A stretch of 36,919 nt of DNA from a virus. A program made the position numbers and the translations under genes. The stretch lies in the IMG/VR virus record IMGVR_UViG_3300022707_000766, positions 1-36,919 of that record; one strand, given 5' to 3'. Under the pieces are notes generated by a model, which did not search any database, had not been told where the DNA came from, and saw only the letters and a list, made by a program, of their open reading frames with translations. Shown in pieces: positions 3,340-36,919 of the stretch (within the stretch, counting starts at the first letter, position 1; each line of letters starts with the position of its first letter).

Positions 3340-3876
3340 TCAGTCATTTACACTCAATAACCTATTTAAATCTTCTTGTTGATAATACTCCTCTTGATAA
3401 ACCATAGTTGAATTAATACTACGGTGACCAAGAGCACGCTTACAAAGTAATAAATCCTTAGTTCTCTTATATAAATTAAATGCATAGGTATGTCTCAGGC
3501 TGTGTAATTTCTTAGGCACTGGCCTGAATTGATACCATATCTCAAGCAGCCTTCTATGACCTAGGTTCCATATAGGTTTAGCTCTCTCGCCAGTAGCTAA
3601 GGATTGAATCTTCTTAAAGAGTTCAGGCTTAATAGGTATCTCTCTATCCTTGCCGCCTTTGACTGTAGCTATCTGAATACTTTGGGTATCGTCATATAAA
3701 TCCATAGGTCGGAGTAGTAACATTTCACTTGACCTCATTCCTGTTTTCATTAATAACTCAATCATAACTGCGTTGCGGAATTCCTTACGTTTAGAATTCA
3801 GTATGCGCTCTTCGAGTTCAACGACCTCTATCGGGGTAAGATATTTTAATTTAGATATTGAATGTGGCCTTCTCAT
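3340..3876 (-). CDS. int: Short tyrosine recombinase / integrase (catalytic domain only)
   Basis: A 178-residue tyrosine recombinase. The active-site set is visible: Arg48 (TGMRSSEM), Lys73/76 (VKGGKDREI), His125-x-x-Arg128 (LHSLRHTYA), His151 (LGHRSI) and the nucleophile Tyr160 (MVYQEEYY). It breaks and rejoins DNA at paired sites, for integration or dimer resolution. Typical phage integrases have 300-400 residues; this one lacks the arm-binding and core-binding N-terminal domains, a size similar to FimB/FimE-type invertases. The start has AGAGG close to the ATG. An inverted repeat lies 26 bases upstream. It sits within the accessory genes rather than next to a recognisable repressor. Confidence 0.9.
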   Translation of the reverse strand: MRRPHSISKLKYLTPIEVVELEERILNSKRKEFRNAVMIELLMKTGMRSSEMLLLRPMDLYDDTQSIQIATVKGGKDREIPIKPELFKKIQSLATGERAKPIWNLGHRRLLEIWYQFRPVPKKLHSLRHTYAFNLYKRTKDLLLCKRALGHRSINSTMVYQEEYYQQEDLNRLLSVND

Positions 3877-3928: not shown

Positions 3929-4110
3929 TATGTTTCTTTTTCAGGCTTAAAATCTCCATCAGCATCTAAATGCTCAGGTGGCCATCCCCTTGTTGCTATA
4001 TTTATGCTTCTTAAAATTCTAACCACGAAACACCTAATTAAATAATAAGTACTACAAATAATAAAGAAAGCTAAAATAAAGTGGTTGTGCATAAAATCCC
4101 AAAATTCCAT
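3928..4110 (-). CDS. Small membrane protein with WPP...DADGD tail
   Basis: 60 residues: one transmembrane helix (about residues 11-32, FILAFFIICSTYYLIRCFVV), a basic RSINIATRGW segment, then WPPEHLDADGDF. This pattern of one helix, RSxNI and a WPPxHxDADGD tail occurs in many small phage proteins of unknown function. The start follows TTTTGACATAAGGAGAGCCT, the best example of the junction motif with built-in ribosome binding site. Confidence 0.72.
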   Translation of the reverse strand: MEFWDFMHNHFILAFFIICSTYYLIRCFVVRILRSINIATRGWPPEHLDADGDFKPEKET

Positions 4111-4124
4111 AGGCTCTCCTTATG

Positions 4125-4283
4125 TCAAAACTTAGAAGTTTCCAGTTTCTCGGTCATTTCTTTTAGAGTTAAGCATTTTTTGTCACTTTTAACAAAAACA
4201 TCTCCGTTGCGATAATACAAACTGCCGTCAACACAACGGTCACAACCGGCCAAAAACAATGCTATAACAATTACAATCTTCAT
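4125..4283 (-). CDS. Small putative lipoprotein
   Basis: Read from the sequence: 52 codons from the ATG at 4283 to the TGA in TTTTGACA at 4125. The N-terminus MKIVIVIALFLAGCD is a short lipoprotein signal with lipobox LAGC, so the mature protein would be about 38 residues anchored by Cys14. The rest is polar with further Cys residues. AAGGAG precedes the start at good spacing. Small phage lipoproteins include Rz1-like spanins and exclusion factors; nothing here decides between them. Confidence 0.65.
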   Translation of the reverse strand: MKIVIVIALFLAGCDRCVDGSLYYRNGDVFVKSDKKCLTLKEMTEKLETSKF

Positions 4284-4304
4284 TCTGCTACCTCTCCTTA
4301 TGTC

Positions 4305-4340
4305 AAAATGCGGCGGGCATTTCAGCTAGCAGCGCCCGCC
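4305..4340 (-). terminator. Hairpin with T-run between small genes (element E1)
   Basis: On the minus strand a perfect 7-bp stem GGCGGGC/GCCCGCC with a 15-base loop is followed by GCATTTT, like a weak intrinsic terminator or attenuator. The T-run belongs to the TTTTGACA junction and runs straight into the ribosome binding site of the lipoprotein gene. Confidence 0.5.
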
Positions 4341-4357
4341 AAGGTCTGCTCCTGTTT

Positions 4358-4609
4358 CTATATCGTATTACGATACCAATTTCTATTACCAATTTTTTGT
4401 TCTATTGCTTTGTTTATAAGGGCTGCGGGTTTCTCATAAGCTTCAAAACGATCTTGTCCCCATTGCCAGATTAAATCAATTAAAGCATTTCTGTCTTTAA
4501 ATTGTTTATCTAATTCGTTTTTCAAATGGTCATGCAATTCTGTATCGTATTTATTTTCATCCTTTGGTTCAAATTCAGTACAAACACAATCTGAATAAGA
4601 CATACTCAT
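4358..4609 (-). CDS. Unknown 83-residue acidic protein
   Basis: An acidic N-terminus (CTEFEPKDENKYD) is followed by helices (ELDKQFKDRNALIDLIWQWGQDRFEAYEKPAALINKAIEQ). I do not recognise it. The leader, TTTTTGAAAGG followed by ATTACATTATG, is identical to that of the gene at 9036, so the two junctions share a common origin or mechanism. The C-terminal IGNRNWYRNTI is basic and aromatic. Confidence 0.6.
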   Translation of the reverse strand: MSMSYSDCVCTEFEPKDENKYDTELHDHLKNELDKQFKDRNALIDLIWQWGQDRFEAYEKPAALINKAIEQKIGNRNWYRNTI

Positions 4610-4661
4610 AATGTAATCCTTTCAAAAATCTATTCTATTTCCATTTACTTATGTCAAAAAG

Positions 4662-4802
4662 TGGGGGGCTCGTGTAATTTACACAAATCCAAGCTTTGCA
4701 TGGCCTCTTACCCCATGCCCATAACTAGTACACGTTCCCTAGTGCGATAATCCACTTGGCCATCACTGGATGAGTCACGTGCTTCAATCCTCCGACCCCC
4801 CA
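4662..4802 (-). other. GC-rich structured segment E2 (possible small RNA)
   Basis: 141 bases without a convincing gene, clearly richer in GC than their surroundings. The ends pair perfectly (TGGGGGG with CCCCCCA). Inside are hairpins CATGG/CCATG, ATCCA/TGGAT and GTGT/ACAC. On the minus strand the left flank is TTTTGACATTTATGGG and the right flank CCCACTTTTTGACATAAG. A 31-codon frame starts at the flank ATG (4803) and stops at 4708 without a ribosome binding site. A structured RNA ending at a T-run, or a decayed gene, are both possible. Confidence 0.5.
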
Positions 4803-4808
4803 TAAATG

Positions 4809-5009
4809 TCAAAAGTAAGAAGTCACTCTAGACAAAGTACCTAAAAACTCTTCTAAGCATTGCCTGTGGTCTGTTGTTTCAAGATTTTCTCTTAGCTTTT
4901 TAATATTTTCATTTAATTGTTTCAGAATTTCTTCGTTCTTTTCTAATCTTTTAAGTTCATCATAAGGCACGAAAACTAAATAAGCATTTGAACTATTTTC
5001 ATTTATCAT
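4809..5009 (-). CDS. Small coiled-coil protein
   Basis: 66 residues, with a long heptad-like segment ELKRLEKNEEILKQLNENIK (about 18-37) that continues through KKLRENLE and predicts a coiled coil. GGAG lies a little far from the ATG at 5009. Its TGA stop is part of TTTTGACATTTATG, which opens element E2. The function is unknown; a small dimeric phage factor would fit. Confidence 0.58.
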   Translation of the reverse strand: MINENSSNAYLVFVPYDELKRLEKNEEILKQLNENIKKLRENLETTDHRQCLEEFLGTLSRVTSYF

Positions 5010-5032
5010 TCGTCAATATCTCCATTTATCAA

Positions 5033-5212
5033 TTAGTCGTCACCAAAACGAGAATCCCAACATTTTTTACATCGCGCCGATCCCTCGCCTGGTTTTGTTT
5101 CAACTCCGCAATCTGTACAAAATGTTTTTGCACATTCACATATGTTCCAATCTGCATCTTCTGTGCCATCTTGAAAAGCCCATCCGTTGCACTGTGGGCA
5201 TTTGTAATTCAT
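5033..5212 (-). CDS. Small zinc-ribbon protein
   Basis: Read from the sequence: 59 codons. Four Cys-pair motifs are visible: CPQC near residue 5, CEC near 32, CTDCG near 38 and CKKCW near 52, consistent with one or two zinc ribbons. The leader of about 33 bases, TTGACAATTTTAGTACTTAA followed by CGAAAGGG, recurs before the genes at 7474 and 8745. The function is unknown. Confidence 0.62.
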   Translation of the reverse strand: MNYKCPQCNGWAFQDGTEDADWNICECAKTFCTDCGVETKPGEGSARCKKCWDSRFGDD

Positions 5213-5242
5213 TCAAAACCCTTTCGTTAAGTACTAAAATTG

Positions 5243-5350
5243 TCAACGAGTCGATCTCTTACTACATTCAGTACAAAGCAATGGATGACCACTATCATTA
5301 TTGAAATATTTTCTACACCATTCACACCAATAAACCATACATTTTTGCAT
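5243..5350 (-). CDS. Very small Cys-rich protein
   Basis: 35 codons from the ATG at 5350 to the TGA in CGTTGACA. Cys motifs CMVYWCEWC (residues 4-12) and CTECSKR (about 26-32) make a plausible single zinc site. AGGAG of the junction TTTTGACAGGAG lies 5-7 bases before the start. Too short for confident calling, but the ribosome site, Cys spacing and junction motif agree. Confidence 0.5.
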   Translation of the reverse strand: MQKCMVYWCEWCRKYFNNDSGHPLLCTECSKRSTR

Positions 5351-5367
5351 TGCTTCTCCTGTCAAAA

Positions 5368-5433
5368 GGTGGAGGGCCAGCGGGACTTTCCCGCACAACT
5401 TTCGCCGGATGCATTTAAGCGTCCACCCCCCAT
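5368..5433 (-). other. GC-rich structured segment E3 (possible small RNA or 23-codon gene)
   Basis: The ends pair as GGTGGA (5368-5373) with TCCACC (5422-5427), and GCGGG/CCCGC (5380-5394) forms an inner hairpin. The minus-strand left flank TTTGACATTTATGGG is the same as in E2 and E5, and the right flank is CCACCTTTTGACAGGAG. A 23-codon frame runs from the flank ATG (5433) to the TGA of the next junction (5362), without a ribosome binding site. Confidence 0.5.
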
Positions 5434-5438
5434 AAATG

Positions 5439-5711
5439 TCAAAGATTAGAAGTTTCTAAACTATCTAACTCCTGTAGAACTTCTTTACAGAAGCGCCGTA
5501 AATTGTCATGGCTACACTCTACCGACTCCTCTATTGTATAAGTGTCTGCATCGGCTTCGTTCTCAGCTTCCCTATCAAATGTATCTGGGTCTTGTGTCGA
5601 TATAACCTCAATAGCGCACACATTTCCATTAGCACAAAAAGATATCACTTTATTGTTTCGGCGATCTATATCGTCAATAAGTTTTAAGATTTTACATGAC
5701 TTTGTATCCAC
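5439..5711 (-). CDS. Unknown 90-residue acidic protein
   Basis: A GTG start at 5711 is preceded by AGGAG at 6-base spacing. The protein is acidic (DPDTFDREAENEADADTYTIEESVE) with a helical C-terminus. I do not recognise it. The open frame continues upstream of the GTG without a stop for 19 codons and there reads SGIPIAVVYVK, similar to the end of the small terminase protein (SDIPIAVYFK). The TGA stop is that of TTTGACATTTATG. Confidence 0.58.
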   Translation of the reverse strand: MDTKSCKILKLIDDIDRRNNKVISFCANGNVCAIEVISTQDPDTFDREAENEADADTYTIEESVECSHDNLRRFCKEVLQELDSLETSNL

Positions 5712-5763
5712 TTGTTCTCCTATAGTTTTTACATAAACTACTGCAATCGGTATGCCTGAATTG

Positions 5764-6036
5764 TCAAATTATAGTAATAGATTCGTCAATGTATATATAG
5801 AAACCTTCATCCGGCTCATCGTAATAATCTTCACGACCTTCAAATTCTAAATATATAACGGCGTCTCTATCGCAATCGGACCCGAACCATACCTTCTGTA
5901 TCTTTGCTGGTAAAGGCAAATATCGTTCACCATTCTCCACAGCATCTTCAAGGTTTGATGAAAATCCATGTTCAACACTATTTAAAACTCGGCCCTCTAA
6001 AGCTTTTTTTATTAAATCTTCAGCATTAAATTCCAT
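5764..6036 (-). CDS. Unknown 90-residue protein
   Basis: An acidic protein with aromatic-rich strands (KVWFGSDCDRDAVIYLEFEG; DYYDEPDEGFYIYIDES). I do not recognise it. The leader CCGGAATTTTTGAAAGGA is related to those at 4609 and 9036. The TGA stop lies in AATTTGACA. Confidence 0.58.
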   Translation of the reverse strand: MEFNAEDLIKKALEGRVLNSVEHGFSSNLEDAVENGERYLPLPAKIQKVWFGSDCDRDAVIYLEFEGREDYYDEPDEGFYIYIDESITII

Positions 6037-6080
6037 GTATTCCTTTCAAAAATTCCGGTTACTGTGCCAAAGACTGGCAG

Positions 6081-6362
6081 TTAAATCCAATAGCCTTTTC
6101 TATCAACTGTTCTTGGAGGTATTAATGATGGCCCACCTACTTTTTTAATTTCTTCTTTTTCTTCAAACATACTTTTGGGTGCCTTTTTAGCAACAGTTAC
6201 CATTGTCTCATCAAACCATTCACCTTTTGGTAGTGTCCCATCTTTGTTAATTGGCGGCTGTAAATAAACATTATCACAGCCAGTTAAATGTATTTGCCTA
6301 GAAGTCATCACTCCCTTAAATCCCGTAACTTTATCTTTCCCTGTATCACCCATTTCAATCAT
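6081..6362 (-). CDS. Unknown 93-residue protein
   Basis: I choose the ATG at 6362 because GGAG stands 7 bases before it (ATGGAGAAATTACATG) and the TTTTGACA junction lies just upstream. A longer frame to 6425 has no ribosome site and runs through structured element E4. The protein has a polar beta-like N-terminal half (KVTGFKGVMTSRQIHLTGC), then EEKEEIKKVGGPSLIPPRT. I do not recognise it. Confidence 0.58.
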   Translation of the reverse strand: MIEMGDTGKDKVTGFKGVMTSRQIHLTGCDNVYLQPPINKDGTLPKGEWFDETMVTVAKKAPKSMFEEKEEIKKVGGPSLIPPRTVDRKGYWI

Positions 6363-6401
6363 GTAATTTCTCCATTGTTTAGTGTTTATTGTCAAAATAT
6401 A

Positions 6402-6490
6402 GCGCCTGTCTTTCCAGGCTGTCATATGGTTTTAGGTCTGGGGTATTGGTCCCACTGGGTACAGGGTACGTCATAACCCCTACACCGAAA
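6402..6490 (-). other. GC-rich structured segment E4
   Basis: No gene seen. A hairpin GCCTG/CAGGC (6404-6419) lies just before TATATTTTGACA, and a larger fold pairs GGTCTGGGGT (6435-6444) imperfectly with AACCCCTACACC near 6475-6486. Unlike E2, E3 and E5 it follows a TAG stop and lacks the TTTATGGG left flank, so it may be a related or degenerate element. Confidence 0.35.
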
Positions 6491-6491
6491 T

Positions 6492-6701
6492 CTAGATATC
6501 ATAACCTTCAATTGGAATAGGGCCTTTAGGATGACAAACGCCATCAACTCCATGCCAATCTAAATTCTGCTTCATTGGCTTTCCAACCGCATTAATAAAA
6601 TTAGTTATTAATCTAGCCATTATAAAATCTGGCATGTCCCATTCATTTTCTATACAATGCTTATTAATTAATGATTGTAATTCCTTCTCAAAATCTTGCA
6701 T
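6492..6701 (-). CDS. Unknown 69-residue protein
   Basis: Helical N-terminal half (MQDFEKELQSLINKHCIENE), then NFINAVGKPMKQNLDWHGVDGVCHP. I do not recognise it. The start follows TTTTTGACATAAGGAG, the full junction motif, 5 bases from the ATG. The stop is TAG rather than the TGA of a junction, and E4 follows. Confidence 0.58.
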   Translation of the reverse strand: MQDFEKELQSLINKHCIENEWDMPDFIMARLITNFINAVGKPMKQNLDWHGVDGVCHPKGPIPIEGYDI

Positions 6702-6723
6702 TTTTACTCCTTATGTCAAAAAG

Positions 6724-6797
6724 TGGGCTTAGCCTGAGAGGTTGTATTCTCGAAGCACGAGACGGCATTTCCTCCCTCTCCCGTCAGGCTACGCCCA
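6724..6797 (-). other. GC-rich structured segment E5 (best small-RNA candidate)
   Basis: A 14-bp stem with one mismatch pairs TGGGCTTAGCCTGA (6724-6737) with TCAGGCTACGCCCA (6784-6797). Inside is a hairpin TCTCG/CGAGA (6748-6762). On the minus strand the right arm is followed by CTTTTT, so the whole resembles a terminator with a large apical domain or a compact RNA. The flanks are TTGACATTTATGGG and CCCACTTTTTGACATAAG. The ATG in the left flank opens only four codons, so coding is unlikely from there. Confidence 0.6.
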
Positions 6798-6803
6798 TAA
6801 ATG

Positions 6804-6908
6804 TCAACGAGCAGTACCTTTTGTAGGCCCGCCAACTAAATCCTTTTCTTCAATTTTTATGGTTTGCAGAACAGACCATCCTATACAATTGTCTGCTCTA
6901 GCAGTCAT
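6804..6908 (-). CDS. Possible 34-residue protein
   Basis: Frame from the ATG at 6908 to the TGA in CGTTGACATTTATG. The ribosome site is weak (AAAGAG about 14 bases away). The C-terminal part EEKDLVGGPTKGTAR vaguely recalls EEIKKVGGPS in the 6081-6362 product. Included because the gap fits and the stop falls exactly in the junction motif. Confidence 0.35.
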   Translation of the reverse strand: MTARADNCIGWSVLQTIKIEEKDLVGGPTKGTAR

Positions 6909-6926
6909 TGTTTTTTCACTTGCTCT

Positions 6927-7061
6927 TTAATCTAAAATATTCTTAAACTCTGAATGTTTTTCACAACTAAACCCCTCAGAGCCACAAGTTAAATAACGAC
7001 AACATTTATCTAACTGGCCTATTCTACATGTTTCGTTGATATACTTTCTTGGTATTTCCAT
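6927..7061 (-). CDS. Very small Cys-rich protein
   Basis: 44 codons read from the sequence, starting after CTTGACATAAGGAGAGTGT, a near-perfect junction and ribosome site. Five Cys residues (C12, C20, C21, C26 and C33) suggest a metal-binding or disulfide mini-protein. The function is unknown. Confidence 0.55.
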   Translation of the reverse strand: MEIPRKYINETCRIGQLDKCCRYLTCGSEGFSCEKHSEFKNILD

Positions 7062-7075
7062 ACACTCTCCTTATG

Positions 7076-7474
7076 TCAAGACTTGGAACTTTTCAAATTA
7101 TCATCAACCCATTTTCTCATTCTTACCCAACGCTGTTCAGGAGTTTCGCTTGAGTACTGATCATCATTTTCATATTCAATTTCCGCAGCCATTGATTGAG
7201 AAATACCAACTGCCCTACCTACCATTTCAGGGTCCTCATAGTCTATTGAATCCATATCTATACCCTTAGCTTTACAAAAAGAACCTATAGCACAAACTTC
7301 TCCTTTTTTATTAACCAGCTCATCACTAATTAATTTCTTCTCACTCATTCCATCTAAAGCTTCTGCAAGGCCTGCAAGAAATATCTGACCTCTTTTGCCA
7401 GCAATAGACCTCTCAACAGTACCCCTATAAAGTTCTAAAAACTCACAATCATCTGTATAGCCGCTTCTGCTCAT
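7076..7474 (-). CDS. Unknown 132-residue protein
   Basis: A largely helical soluble protein with an Arg/Lys-rich first half (FLELYRGTVERSIAGKRGQIFLAGLAEALDGM) and an acidic second half. The block GEVCAIGSFCKAKGIDMDSID followed by acidic segments and AVGISQSMAAEIEYENDD is typical of a phage family of unknown function that I have seen in other genomes but cannot name. GGAG stands 6-7 bases before the ATG. The longer leader from 7528 repeats that of 5212 and 8745. The stop is the TGA of CTTGACATAAGGAG. Confidence 0.65.
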   Translation of the reverse strand: MSRSGYTDDCEFLELYRGTVERSIAGKRGQIFLAGLAEALDGMSEKKLISDELVNKKGEVCAIGSFCKAKGIDMDSIDYEDPEMVGRAVGISQSMAAEIEYENDDQYSSETPEQRWVRMRKWVDDNLKSSKS

Positions 7475-7525
7475 GTTTTCTCCTATGTAATAAGTTCAAT
7501 TCAAACTCCTTAAATACTAAAATTG

Positions 7526-7669
7526 TCAATAAACGGGCATCTGCCTTGAATACTTCAGACCACACCGCTTGCATTTCTTATGAAAAAAATAATACTCACC
7601 AATTTCTCGTGGCGGATATGAAGAATCAATTACTATTTTATGGCCAAAAATTTTACAAATCCACTTCAC
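7526..7669 (-). CDS. Small zinc-binding protein, DUF1660-like pattern
   Basis: 47 codons with a GTG start at 7669, AGGAG 9 bases upstream. The N-terminus KWICKIFGHK followed by CKRCGLKY near residue 33 is the pattern of small phage CxFGH...CxRCG zinc proteins (DUF1660-like; family name from memory). The stop is the TGA of TATTGACAATTTTAG. Confidence 0.58.
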   Translation of the reverse strand: MKWICKIFGHKIVIDSSYPPREIGEYYFFHKKCKRCGLKYSRQMPVY

Positions 7670-7682
7670 CTATATACTCCTG

Positions 7683-7907
7683 TCAAAGACCCGATTTAAA
7701 CTTACACATCTTATGCATTTCTTTTAGTTGAGTTAGATTCTTTTTGGCTATGAGCTTTTCTAACTTGACCTCTTGAACTTTTATTACGAACAACACAAGA
7801 TCATCCATGTATTCAAGCACCGATCTTTTAAGCCAATCATAATCAGTGAAGCCAGATTTCTCATGCTTATCAAATATTTCTTTTATGCCTTTCTTACCGT
7901 TCATCAT
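7683..7907 (-). CDS. Unknown 74-residue helical protein
   Basis: Charged helical protein (SVLEYMDDLVLFVIKVQEVKLEKLIAKK), no recognised motif. AGAGG lies 4-7 bases before the ATG pair at 7907/7904. The stop TGA lies in TCTTTGACAGGAG, which provides the ribosome site of the next gene. Confidence 0.58.
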   Translation of the reverse strand: MMNGKKGIKEIFDKHEKSGFTDYDWLKRSVLEYMDDLVLFVIKVQEVKLEKLIAKKNLTQLKEMHKMCKFKSGL

Positions 7908-7930
7908 CTACCTCTACGAGAAATGTCAAA

Positions 7931-8095
7931 TTATCGAATAAGCCCTTTTATCGACTTCGTTTTTTCAAGTTCATCTATAAACTTTAACCAAAATTGTGCT
8001 TGAAGGTCTTTATCCATATCCTCTAGATATGCAGCTATTTTTCCAGCCAAGTTACTATCAACCCCTATTTTTATTAGGACTTCTTCTTTTGTCAT
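7931..8095 (-). CDS. Unknown 54-residue helical protein
   Basis: Read from the sequence. MTKEEVLIKIGVDSNLAGKI then AAYLEDMDKDLQAQFWLKFI predicts two or three helices. AGAGG is 10 bases before the ATG. The TAA stop is followed at once by TTTGACA. The function is unknown. Confidence 0.55.
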   Translation of the reverse strand: MTKEEVLIKIGVDSNLAGKIAAYLEDMDKDLQAQFWLKFIDELEKTKSIKGLIR

Positions 8096-8129
8096 TATTA
8101 CAAAACCTCTGCTTTAAAAGCGATTAATG

Positions 8130-8267
8130 TCAAAAATAAGAATGATATTTAATTCTTATAATAATTTTAGCTATCCATAGCGGTATCCATTTGATTACTT
8201 CACAGTCTACTTGATCAAAATACCAATGACTGTCAGTCTCAATGTAACTATATAAATCTTTCCTCAT
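8130..8267 (-). CDS. Small protein with one hydrophobic helix
   Basis: 45 codons from the ATG at 8267; AAGGA of TTTTGACAAAGGACG stands 6 bases upstream. The C-terminal half (VIKWIPLWIAKIIIRIKYH) is amphipathic and could insert in the membrane. Its segment TDSHW matches TerL residues near 148, and the 15 bases encoding it are identical, possibly by chance. Ends with the TGA of TTTTTGACATTAATC. Confidence 0.52.
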   Translation of the reverse strand: MRKDLYSYIETDSHWYFDQVDCEVIKWIPLWIAKIIIRIKYHSYF

Positions 8268-8279
8268 ATGCGTCCTTTG

Positions 8280-8486
8280 TCAAAACTTAGTCGTCGTTCT
8301 ATCTTTATTACAAATAATAAGTATTTGTTCGTACTTATAATCATTCCTATCTGAAAAATTTGTTAACATTGGGCGTTTTGATGACCGACAATTATAAACT
8401 TTATGACATTTAGAAAGATCAATAGTCGTTCCATTAAGTCCTTGCGGGCCACACAATAATATTAATGCTGAAATTAATTCACTCAT
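8280..8486 (-). CDS. Unknown 68-residue protein
   Basis: Hydrophobic N-terminus (MSELISALILLCGPQGLNGT), perhaps a signal or amphipathic helix, then a Cys-containing polar part. I choose the ATG at 8486, 7 bases after GGAG in TTTTGACATAAGGAGAACGG; GTG at 8489 is the alternative. I do not recognise the product. The stop is the TGA of GTTTTGACAAAGGAC. Confidence 0.58.
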   Translation of the reverse strand: MSELISALILLCGPQGLNGTTIDLSKCHKVYNCRSSKRPMLTNFSDRNDYKYEQILIICNKDRTTTKF

Positions 8487-8502
8487 CACCGTTCTCCTTA
8501 TG

Positions 8503-8745
8503 TCAAAATTCGGGCCTCAACAATTCCCAAAAATCAATTTTCTCTTTACTTATAGGTACGAACCTAGCAGGCATAGTCAGGCCACATCCATGATCTGACA
8601 TTGTTACGCCCCTATAGCCCGGAATAGCGATAGGCACATCAAACTCAAATTTGTCACCACAAGTAGGACATTCAACTTTCTCTAAATCAATATCATATCG
8701 CTTTGCCCATTCTTTGATATCAACTATAGGTCTTAATTCGCTCAT
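8503..8745 (-). CDS. Zinc-ribbon-like 80-residue protein
   Basis: Residues 26-29 are CPTC (VECPTCGDKFEFDVP) and HGCG follows near residue 52, a possible zinc site. The N-terminus VDIKEWAKRYDIDLEKV is helical. The leader, TTGACAATTTCCGTATTTAG and onward, is one of three related long leaders. GAAAGGA lies before the ATG. The function is unknown. Confidence 0.6.
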   Translation of the reverse strand: MSELRPIVDIKEWAKRYDIDLEKVECPTCGDKFEFDVPIAIPGYRGVTMSDHGCGLTMPARFVPISKEKIDFWELLRPEF

Positions 8746-8784
8746 ATATTCCTTTCAAACTCACTTCGCTAAATACGGAAATTG

Positions 8785-9036
8785 TCAAGATTCAGCACTC
8801 TTAATGGTTACACGTATTAATTCACCAATTTTTGAATGATCACCTTGATGATGTTTCTCAACACGTTTTAAAACTAACACCATTCTATCAATAACTTTTT
8901 GTTGCTCATCCCATGCTTCCTTCGGAAGGGCCATTGCATAATTTCTTATTTGAGTATATCGGCGGCGCTTCCAGCATGGATGAATATTTCCACCTCTTAA
9001 AAACCACCAGGAGCTCCACCTTGTATTCATCAGCAT
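8785..9036 (-). CDS. Unknown 83-residue basic protein
   Basis: Very basic Trp/Arg-rich first third (TRWSSWWFLRGGNIHPCWKR), then helices (DEQQKVIDRMVLVLKRVEKHHQ). The leader TTTTTGAAAGG with ATTACATTATG is identical to that of the gene at 4609, far away in the array. I do not recognise it; nucleic-acid binding would fit the charge. Confidence 0.55.
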   Translation of the reverse strand: MLMNTRWSSWWFLRGGNIHPCWKRRRYTQIRNYAMALPKEAWDEQQKVIDRMVLVLKRVEKHHQGDHSKIGELIRVTIKSAES

Positions 9037-9073
9037 AATGTAATCCTTTCAAAAACTCCGGTTTATGTGTCAA

Positions 9074-9232
9074 CTAGTCGAATCCGACTAACCATGAATA
9101 AGATATAGGCATTAATATCATACTCCAATGTTTAGTTATCCCCCACTTCCAAGGCTGAAGTCTCCAGTTGTTATAGGGGTCATAAGTTACATGCCAAAAC
9201 AAAACCCTAATTATTATCCCTCGCTTTTTCAT
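9074..9232 (-). CDS. Small Trp-rich protein
   Basis: 52 codons from the ATG at 9232, preceded by AGGA. Six Trp residues in 52 (PYNNWRLQPWKWGITKHW and around it) and a hydrophobic C-terminus suggest a membrane-associated peptide. The TAG stop is followed directly by TTGACA. The function is unknown. Confidence 0.52.
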   Translation of the reverse strand: MKKRGIIIRVLFWHVTYDPYNNWRLQPWKWGITKHWSMILMPISYSWLVGFD

Positions 9233-9295: not shown

Positions 9296-9302
9296 AGTTA
9301 TG

Positions 9303-9515
9303 TCAAAGACCCGAAATTTCTTTTAATTTACGCTCGAAGTTAGTAATGCAATCTAATTCTAATCCCATATTTGATGAATAACAAAAATTTATATATTTAT
9401 AATGTTCTTGTAGAAAAATAATTAATTTATCTACATCTTTTTTGCAGGTACAAGGTTTTCCAACATCATATAAATTGCAACAAGACCAAGATTTTATTTG
9501 TTGTATTAAATTCAT
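9303..9515 (-). CDS. Unknown 70-residue Cys-containing protein
   Basis: SWSCCNLYDVGKPCTCKKD (residues 9-27) has four Cys in a tight cluster, as in a zinc knuckle, followed by helices. The ending EISGL and TGA in TTTGACATAAC resembles the end of the gene at 7683 (KSGL). GAGGA precedes the ATG with rather long spacing. Confidence 0.55.
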   Translation of the reverse strand: MNLIQQIKSWSCCNLYDVGKPCTCKKDVDKLIIFLQEHYKYINFCYSSNMGLELDCITNFERKLKEISGL

Positions 9516-9541
9516 CTTTTAATGTCTATCCTCGTAATTTA

Positions 9542-9679
9542 TCAAAACCCAGTAACCAACTTAAATCCTAAAACACACCCGCCCATTATTGCCCCAATGG
9601 TAAACGTCACGAGACCACACATAATAATAATCCATATTATTGGGAATAAATCTTTAAATAATGTACGTAAAAAATTCAA
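9542..9679 (-). CDS. Small single-pass membrane protein
   Basis: 45 codons with a TTG start at 9679, AAGGAG 8 bases upstream. Residues 12-39 (LFPIIWIIIMCGLVTFTIGA onward) form one long hydrophobic helix. It could be a toxin-like or holin-like micro-protein, but nothing specific shows this. It ends TTTTGATAA. Confidence 0.52.
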   Translation of the reverse strand: MNFLRTLFKDLFPIIWIIIMCGLVTFTIGAIMGGCVLGFKLVTGF

Positions 9680-9712
9680 CTCAACTACTCCTTAAGTGAC
9701 TAATGTCAAAAC

Positions 9713-9844
9713 CTAGCGGTCATAACTCCAATAGCTATCACACGCCTGGCAATCCATAACAATCCTTTTTGGATTAGTAGAAACATTTACAAAGGCATTG
9801 TGTTTATGTAGCCACATACCTAGTTTTGCTAAAAGTTTTTCCAT
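9713..9844 (-). CDS. Small protein with CxxC motif
   Basis: 43 codons from the ATG at 9844, preceded by AAGGGA. MEKLLAKLGMWLHKHNAFVN then CQACDSYWSYDR; a single CQAC pair plus His residues could bind metal. The TAG stop is followed by GTTTTGACA. The function is unknown. Confidence 0.5.
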   Translation of the reverse strand: MEKLLAKLGMWLHKHNAFVNVSTNPKRIVMDCQACDSYWSYDR

Positions 9845-9856
9845 ATTTATCCCTTG

Positions 9857-10093
9857 TCAAATTATAGCTATCACTTCTACTCTAGCGTTAACAAATGAAA
9901 ATGGCAGCAAAGTAAAAGGTCCGCTCTCTGTATTAGCTATGGCCCAAAAATCAGGATCTTTAGGTAACCAAACAATTTTACCTAATGATTTATTATTATT
10001 CATAAGCCGTTCACCAGGGTTATCATATAAATGAAGCTTTCTGCCAAGTGCAATCGCACCAGTCTTTTTACTCATCAATACATACTCTTTCAT
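9857..10093 (-). CDS. Unknown 78-residue protein
   Basis: I choose the ATG at 10093, with AAGGA five bases upstream; a start at 10123 overlapping the previous stop (ATGA) is possible and would add 10 residues. The protein is beta-rich (KIVWLPKDPDFWAIANTESG, then PFTLLPFSFVNARVEVIAII). I do not recognise it. It marks the high-coordinate end of the TTTGACA-linked array: its stop TGA lies in AATTTGACAAGGGAT. Confidence 0.6.
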   Translation of the reverse strand: MKEYVLMSKKTGAIALGRKLHLYDNPGERLMNNNKSLGKIVWLPKDPDFWAIANTESGPFTLLPFSFVNARVEVIAII

Positions 10094-36148: not shown

Positions 36149-36919
36149 CTATAAAGATCTTATTGATGGTGATATTTTAGGCCTATCTAAATCATCGCTT
36201 AAGGCATATCTAATCGCATCCCATCCATGATTAAAGGCATCCACCGGCTTATTTAAAGCCTTGCCATCTTTATCTATAGCCCATTTATAATTATTCCTTT
36301 CTTTAATTAAATCAATGGAGTCATTAGTAATAAAACAAGGATAACGCTTGATTACATCAATCCCTTTAACAATCGAGTCAGGCCCTTTTTTTGCACCTCT
36401 TAATTGATAACCTATATTTCTTAAATCTTGTATTGACTTTGGTTCTGCTGAATCGGCTTTGATAATGGCATGTTTAGATATTTCTAAGCGTTCAAATTCA
36501 GCTTGTATGCTAGGCTGACTGGGTTTCATTATATTCTTGAGATTAGTTAAACCTCGTTTATAAATAAGTTGTTTGAAATAAAGGCCACCGCTTTTTAATC
36601 CAATCTTAATTAATGTAGTCGGGTCATTAGTAAATCCAAAATCTAGCCCATACCATATCTTTTTGCAATCTTCTGGGAAGTCATCCACCAATCCAATATC
36701 ACCAAAGATTAAACCCTCTTGACTGGCCCTTTCACCTAAGCCATATATTTTCCAAGAGATTGCATCAGCTGTGCCTTGTGCTATATTTTCCGGTGTGGGC
36801 TCAAGCCTTTCTATCTCATTGATAATTTCAGGTTCTAAAAACGGGTTATCTTTATAGGTTGACTTTATAAATGTGCAATCTTTTCTAGGGATTACTGAAT
36901 CATATATCCAATGACTGTC
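36149..36919 (-). CDS. terL: Terminase large subunit, C-terminal nuclease part
   Basis: Continuation of the gene that begins at 591; 36776-36919 duplicates bases 1-144. The motif YGLDFGFTNDPT (Asp near residue 242 of the full protein) is the first metal-binding Asp of the RNase H-like terminase nuclease. A later segment, SKHAIIKADSAEPKS, and the final region around DAFNHGWDAIRYA match the second and third acidic motifs of this fold. The domain cuts concatemeric DNA. The portal gene follows after 65 bases. A start could be drawn at 36691 if this piece were seen alone, but that would be an artefact of the linearisation. Confidence 0.93.
   Translation of the reverse strand, partial: DSHWIYDSVIPRKDCTFIKSTYKDNPFLEPEIINEIERLEPTPENIAQGTADAISWKIYGLGERASQEGLIFGDIGLVDDFPEDCKKIWYGLDFGFTNDPTTLIKIGLKSGGLYFKQLIYKRGLTNLKNIMKPSQPSIQAEFERLEISKHAIIKADSAEPKSIQDLRNIGYQLRGAKKGPDSIVKGIDVIKRYPCFITNDSIDLIKERNNYKWAIDKDGKALNKPVDAFNHGWDAIRYALSDDLDRPKISPSIRSL
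36776..36919. repeat. Terminal direct repeat, right copy
   Basis: Second exact copy of bases 1-144. Counting it once gives a unit genome of 36,775 bp. Joining 36775 to 1 restores the complete large terminase gene. Confidence 0.95.

Follow-up and report, generated by a model that had tools for sequence, protein, structure and literature searches.

A widespread hairpin, a candidate phage RNA element, in a directional array of small phage genes

The DNA stretch investigated here is the IMG/VR record IMGVR_UViG_3300022707_000766, a sequence of 36,919 bp that is classified as linear; "the window" refers to this whole stretch. The gene order on its minus strand starts with a terminase fragment, portal, HK97-type capsid, tail genes and an endolysin, continues with an ERF annealing protein, a replication-initiation-like protein and RusA, and leads through very small open reading frames (ORFs) to a tyrosine recombinase. 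These very small ORFs form an array on this single strand from about 9.9 to 4.1 kb. Five GC-rich segments without ORFs, E1 to E5, occupy slots between the small phage genes, and a short directional motif recurs at the gene junctions. Foremost, this work deals with a hairpin at the end of segment E4. Close relatives of the phage were sought in the collections via integrase, ERF and capsid, but none was close; the most similar capsids share about 42% identity.

E4 (6396–6491, minus strand) extends from the stop codon TAG (6494–6492) of the ORF at 6492–6701 to a junction motif. It is a structured RNA candidate and, taken as the odd one out in an initial annotation of this DNA, is the segment that ends in the conserved UGACA/GAAAGA hairpin. 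The layout of this end is UGACA, one arm of a 5-bp stem, the loop GAAAGA, the other arm and an A. In the window the hairpin TGACAGCCTGGAAAGACAGGC (6404–6424, minus strand) has the 5' flank TGACA and the stem GCCTG/CAGGC. When the sequences of all five segments were compared by BLAST, with no pattern imposed, to 50,697 phage records, two matches stood out. Both involve the final part of E4 and lie in non-coding DNA, one of the crAss-like phage cr55_1 (28 of 29 nt), the other of Pseudanabaena phage Pan5 (23 of 24 nt). A pattern scan of IMG/VR, in which six stem positions were free and TGACAG, GGAAAGA and GC fixed, yielded at least 120 loci. Among the matches listed there are 16 distinct stem-loop sequences, and in 145 of the 147 distinct places the free stem positions are complementary throughout, against a chance expectation of about 5. 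In an alignment of 35 hairpins 100% of the cells are paired, with 32 double-sided changes and a covariation score of 0.535 versus 0.222 in shuffles, a signal that is lost when the partner is slid. The model R1 matches the window at 6398–6428 with 38.0 bits (E 1.7e-5).

The distribution of the hairpin is broad. The exact 21-mer occurs in 19 bacterial genome contigs (about 0.1 expected), which come from Proteobacteria, Bacteroidetes, cyanobacteria, Clostridiales and others, and near-exact copies were found in about 99 phage records, including E. coli phage mEp390, Erwinia phage phiEt88 and many Vibrio phages. A scan of 398 proteobacterial genomes gave seven pattern matches in six genomes, with a paired stem in six of the seven, and no match for the pattern read backwards. 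At the gathering score, Rfam 15 detected nothing in the window and only tRNAs in L071, L072 and 20 further sources (22 in all). A tRNA or tRNA-like RNA was considered and rejected, as neither ARAGORN nor Rfam detects a cloverleaf in the window. The literature searched contains no description of the motif; most subscription journals lay outside its scope, and an earlier account is possible. GGAAAGAC of the hairpin is presumably also found in the peptidyl-transferase loop of 23S rRNA, which we take as a lead only.

The hairpin is oriented with its surroundings. The nearest downstream ORF lies on the hairpin strand in 110 of 128 cases (110:18, P 3e-17), and tRNAs occur within 700 nt at 25 loci, at none of them on the opposite strand. 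Eight out of 14 downstream tRNAs begin 3–12 nt past the hairpin. The non-coding gap around it has a median of 487 nt; the gap downstream is mostly long (median 185 nt), with some hairpins close upstream of ORF starts. Most of the genes that follow have no relation to one another, falling into 110 clusters among 128. Upstream, the sequence is variable and often structured, and a search for a fixed partner there revealed neither positional conservation nor a shared fold; the k-mers shared most strongly come from tRNA T-arms or are additional copies of GGAAAGAC. Judged from these comparisons, the E4 hairpin represents a putative phage RNA element on the transcribed strand, widespread, uncatalogued and evidently kept by compensatory changes. 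This relationship of E4 to sequences elsewhere had not been noticed in the initial annotation.

Extra copies of the hairpin are present in 7 of 60 loci, nearly all on the same strand and within about 1 kb. For instance, in the E. coli prophage L212 copies lie at 6437, 6488, 6978 and 7026 in the leader of the left operon; a promoter-like site is at 6360–6388, the first hairpin follows about 50 nt past it, and copies stand on both sides of terminator-like hairpins. The regions L212:6395–7210, L213:2950–3700 and L223:5150–5880, from E. coli, Stenotrophomonas and mEp390 phages, respectively, are long structured non-coding leaders that carry several GGAAAGACC-type hairpins and are partly similar in sequence; possibly they are one large uncatalogued RNA. 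A jumbo-phage contig has tandem repeats of about 78 nt with an E4-type hairpin in each (L077:4119–4516, minus strand). In L114 and L122 several T-arm-like GGTTCGA sequences precede the hairpin where ARAGORN calls no tRNAs, which suggests degenerate or unusual tRNA-like RNAs beside it.

The segments E1 to E5 had been reported by the initial annotation with correct coordinates and sequences, as GC-rich islands in AT-rich DNA. Indeed, they make up nearly all stretches with a GC content of at least 53% between 3.9 and 10 kb, where the mean is 36%; two more such runs, at 8562–8637 and 8960–9020, overlap predicted small ORFs. All five lie on the minus strand and are followed downstream by (T)TTTGACA. 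E1 (4307–4345) is a simple GC-rich hairpin between the end of the ORF at 4358–4609 and a junction motif and thus has, like E4, a gene end without the motif on one side and the motif on the other. E2 (4658–4806, outer stem GGGGGG/CCCCCC), E3 (5366–5436, structured, with an inner GCGGGAAAGTCCCGC hairpin) and E5 (6720–6801, outer stem and inner hairpin) are flanked by the motif on both sides. The left end TTGACATTTATGGG, correctly noted as shared by E2, E3 and E5, is common to these three only, and E4 alone has relatives, so that a single family of five is not supported. No homologues of E1, E2, E3 or E5 came up when viral and genome contigs were scanned with patterns and when phages and all fetched loci were searched by BLAST. 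A 14-nt identity to E5, GCCTGACGGGAGAG, occurs at L090:531–544, 53 nt upstream of an E4-type hairpin; this combination did not recur elsewhere in IMG/VR.

Folding was scored as z against dinucleotide shuffles, for which background windows gave a mean of -0.1 and a standard deviation of 1.1. On the minus strand the values are -1.7 (E1), -2.1 (E2), -1.8 (E3), -1.9 (E4) and -3.4 (E5), and the plus strand of E3 reaches -4.2. Thus, the segments as a set exceed the background, but only E5 and plus-strand E3 are individually strong, whereas E1, E2 and E4 are not. End-to-end helices alone are marginal (P 0.03–0.06 for E1, E2, E3 and E5). The ends of E5 do pair, though the 14-bp stem ascribed to it consists of 13 pairs and one mismatch in 14 columns. 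Its outer stem and inner hairpin resemble C4 antisense RNA, with which a comparison had been proposed; however, this idea was rejected, as Rfam gave no C4 match in 4100–7100 or 6700–6830, even at E values up to 10.

Tiny or decayed genes had been offered as an alternative for E3 and similar segments. E3 indeed contains a 23-codon frame that closes at the junction TGA, and E2 one of 31 codons. But no Shine-Dalgarno sequence precedes the ATG in E3, the frame in E5 has 4 codons, the corresponding frames of E2 and E5 neither match that of E3 nor end in the junction TGA, and homologues are lacking, which makes this alternative very improbable. E1 to E5 are non-coding, foldable segments of the minus-strand small-gene array. 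As E1, E2, E3 and E5 have no homologues, it is their folding and the absence of ORFs that speak for RNAs. The idea of small structured phage RNAs moved as cassettes is supported in the case of E4 by the compensatory changes across unrelated phages, since homologues with covarying pairs do exist. Less firmly, E2, E3 and E5 may be further structured RNAs that occupy slots of this kind, which is plausible though unproven.

The motif at the junctions, CNNNNNNTTGACA, is 13 bp long, asymmetric and directional, with 23 exact and three degenerate copies, all on the minus strand between 4.1 and 9.9 kb. The exact copies are located at 4123–4135 (CTAAGTTTTGACA), 4301–4313 (CCGCATTTTGACA, after E1), 4652–4664 (CCACTTTTTGACA, after E2), 4807–4819 (CTTACTTTTGACA, before E2), 5241–5253 (CGACTCGTTGACA), 5360–5372 (CCACCTTTTGACA, after E3), 5437–5449 (CTAATCTTTGACA, before E3), 5762–5774 (CTATAATTTGACA), 6390–6402 (CTATATTTTGACA, after E4), 6714–6726 (CCACTTTTTGACA, after E5), 6802–6814 (CTGCTCGTTGACA, before E5), 7074–7086 (CCAAGTCTTGACA), 7524–7536 (CCGTTTATTGACA), 7681–7693 (CGGGTCTTTGACA), 7924–7936 (CGATAATTTGACA), 8128–8140 (CTTATTTTTGACA), 8278–8290 (CTAAGTTTTGACA), 8501–8513 (CCGAATTTTGACA), 8783–8795 (CTGAATCTTGACA), 9068–9080 (CGACTAGTTGACA), 9301–9313 (CGGGTCTTTGACA), 9704–9716 (CTAGGTTTTGACA) and 9855–9867 (CTATAATTTGACA). 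The degenerate ones are at 5027–5039 (CGACTAATTGATA, at an ORF end), 6065–6077 (CCAGTCTTTGGCA) and 9540–9552 (CTGGGTTTTGATA, at an ORF end). A feature missed in the initial annotation is the C seven bases upstream of TTGACA, present in 23 of 23 minus-strand copies of the array. From the local composition the chance of this is about 2e-19, before correction for 25 columns. Outside the array this C is absent in seven of eight minus-strand TTGACA; on the plus strand it is found in four of six, which we take as coincidence. With a weight matrix run over the whole window, the top 26 sites are the 23 copies plus the degenerate ones at 9545, 6070 and 5032, and every one of them lies within the array on the minus strand; the sites ranked next are scattered, with scores only just below those of the three degenerate copies.

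Except at the E slots, nearly all copies include the stop codon of the upstream ORF, usually as the TGA of TTGACA. AGGAG or AAGGAG follows only some copies, and the spacing from motif to start codon varies. A sigma-70 promoter at the junction was rejected, since no -10 hexamer occurs 15–19 nt after TTGACA (best matches on average 2.9 of 6, versus 3.1 in the control). This motif also supplies the T's that follow the stems of E1, E2, E3 and E5, and junctions without a stem show such T's as well. Therefore, these T-runs are weak evidence for terminators, and the suggestion of attenuators loses weight. Downstream of the array follows directly a tyrosine recombinase of 178 aa, apparently the catalytic part only (3340–3876, minus strand). 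At the ends of the window, an ORF resembling a small terminase (598–948) and a cut terminase-like gene (36149–36919) were found; these two suggest that the record could represent an almost complete genome, opened within the terminase gene.

Two published systems appear closest to the junction motif, and we assign it to neither. The SAS/ESAS of cluster K mycobacteriophages are likewise 13-bp asymmetric repeats in one orientation between small non-structural genes, sometimes hold the upstream stop codon and in some cases have adjacent inverted repeats (PMC3203893). They are unrelated in sequence, however, and contain a Shine-Dalgarno core (AGGAG) 3–7 bp before the start codon, an arrangement that the junction motif does not show: its fixed relation is to the stop codon, whereas the spacing to the start is variable. 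The stoperators of mycobacteriophage L5 are asymmetric 13-mers that lie in short gaps between genes and point along the direction of transcription (PMC9283540). From these the junction motif differs in the rest of the site, and no repressor was identified in the window. The TGTCAA core of the stoperators also matches the junction motif. A repressor site of the stoperator type, where a bound phage repressor would stop elongation, a translation-linked site of the SAS type or a short homology for the recombination of gene cassettes would all accord with a 13-bp asymmetric motif that keeps a single orientation, is limited to small non-structural genes and overlaps stop codons. We see about equal grounds for and against readings of this kind; no motif-bearing relatives were found that would show shuffling. 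Mobile regulatory cassettes of the T4 type, the PeSLs, are stem-loops between small shuffled early genes and carry an early promoter, unlike the slots of the window, in which TTGACA is not followed by a -10 element. The 26 copies of this stop-associated motif would be a further case of directional repeats of the mycobacteriophage type, here in an unrelated phage.

Turning to the function of the E4 hairpin, its sense orientation, its compensatory stem and the constant flank and loop, together with the unrelated downstream genes and the many host phyla, argue for an RNA signal read by a universal machine. Because the hairpin is near-constant across phages of many phyla, whatever recognizes it must be common to those hosts. 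Possibly, if not yet probably, the hairpin marks a class of phage RNA not described so far, with members in Proteobacteria, Bacteroidetes, cyanobacteria and Clostridia phages and prophages. RNAs of this class would act on a universal host machine (RNA polymerase, ribosome or RNase P) and be needed for the expression of long non-coding or tRNA-bearing phage transcripts. The position in an early leader suggests antitermination or anti-pausing. Our best explanation as a whole, offered tentatively, is an uncatalogued phage RNA hairpin acting in cis inside long phage transcripts. The transcription machinery might read it as an antitermination or anti-pausing signal similar to the put RNA of phage HK022, without its being a member of that family. 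RNA polymerase would thereby keep moving where translation is poor, for example in tRNA arrays, early leaders and arrays of tiny genes.

Several observations weigh against such a cis-acting signal. Most whole records searched contain a single strong copy, which would also fit a trans-acting RNA. In the one Vibrio phage inspected the hairpin is opposite in strand to the neighbouring genes, and in the window E4 is deep within the array and not at a leader. Terminators downstream of the hairpin are only slightly enriched, 0.64 versus 0.48 per kb on the opposite strand. The invariance of TGACAG, GGAAAGA and GC is partly by construction, as these were fixed in the search pattern. Finally, the early region of HK022 (22.0–40.75 kb) contains no TGAC...GAAAG element.

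Two rivals must be regarded as serious. The hairpin might form the 3' part of a small RNA that acts in trans or binds a protein and is processed from early or tRNA-array transcripts; the 40–150 nt upstream would then vary because they carry the specific function. Besides the low copy number, a gene-like placement between tRNAs, an upstream part that is often structured, even if without common conservation, and the opposite-strand case in the Vibrio phage would be explained in this way. The upstream fold is not shared, though, some phages have tandem or clustered copies, and neither promoter nor terminator is consistent, so that we consider this a doubtful, if real, possibility. Rather unlikely is a processing or stability signal, at which the RNA would be cut or protected immediately before tRNAs and genes. 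It would account for the eight loci at which a tRNA 5' end closely follows the hairpin and for the hairpins near ORF starts, but the copy number is one per genome and not one per tRNA or gene, and the gaps downstream are mostly long. A weak intrinsic terminator or attenuator is very improbable: the window copy does resemble a terminator on the minus strand, yet at least five T in the 8 nt after the stem are found in only 14% of 143 copies and at least six in 5%, T tails too poor for a canonical terminator, and termination needs neither a conserved loop nor a conserved 5' flank.

For a cis-acting antitermination signal, the HK022 put RNA is the system to compare. It measures about 70 nt and folds into two long stems with a triplex (PMC9378689), and it mediates antitermination without a phage protein, via the beta' zinc-binding domain. 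Unlike it, the E4 type is spread over phages of many phyla and also stands next to tRNAs. Identity of the two was rejected, as sequence and fold of putL/putR are not found in the E4 type; the sole strong GAAAGA hairpin in the early region of HK022 is without the UGACA flank. Found beside tRNAs, in an array of tiny genes and in early-operon leaders, and outside Rfam 15, the E4-type hairpin would be a general phage RNA signal that becomes directly testable in laboratory phages such as mEp390. A location directly after an early promoter-like site is seen in prophage L212 and not in the window or in tRNA arrays. Like put, the E4 type would be a phage-encoded hairpin RNA, and in L212 it lies just past the promoter-like site in the left early leader, which is the position of putL (PMC9378689).

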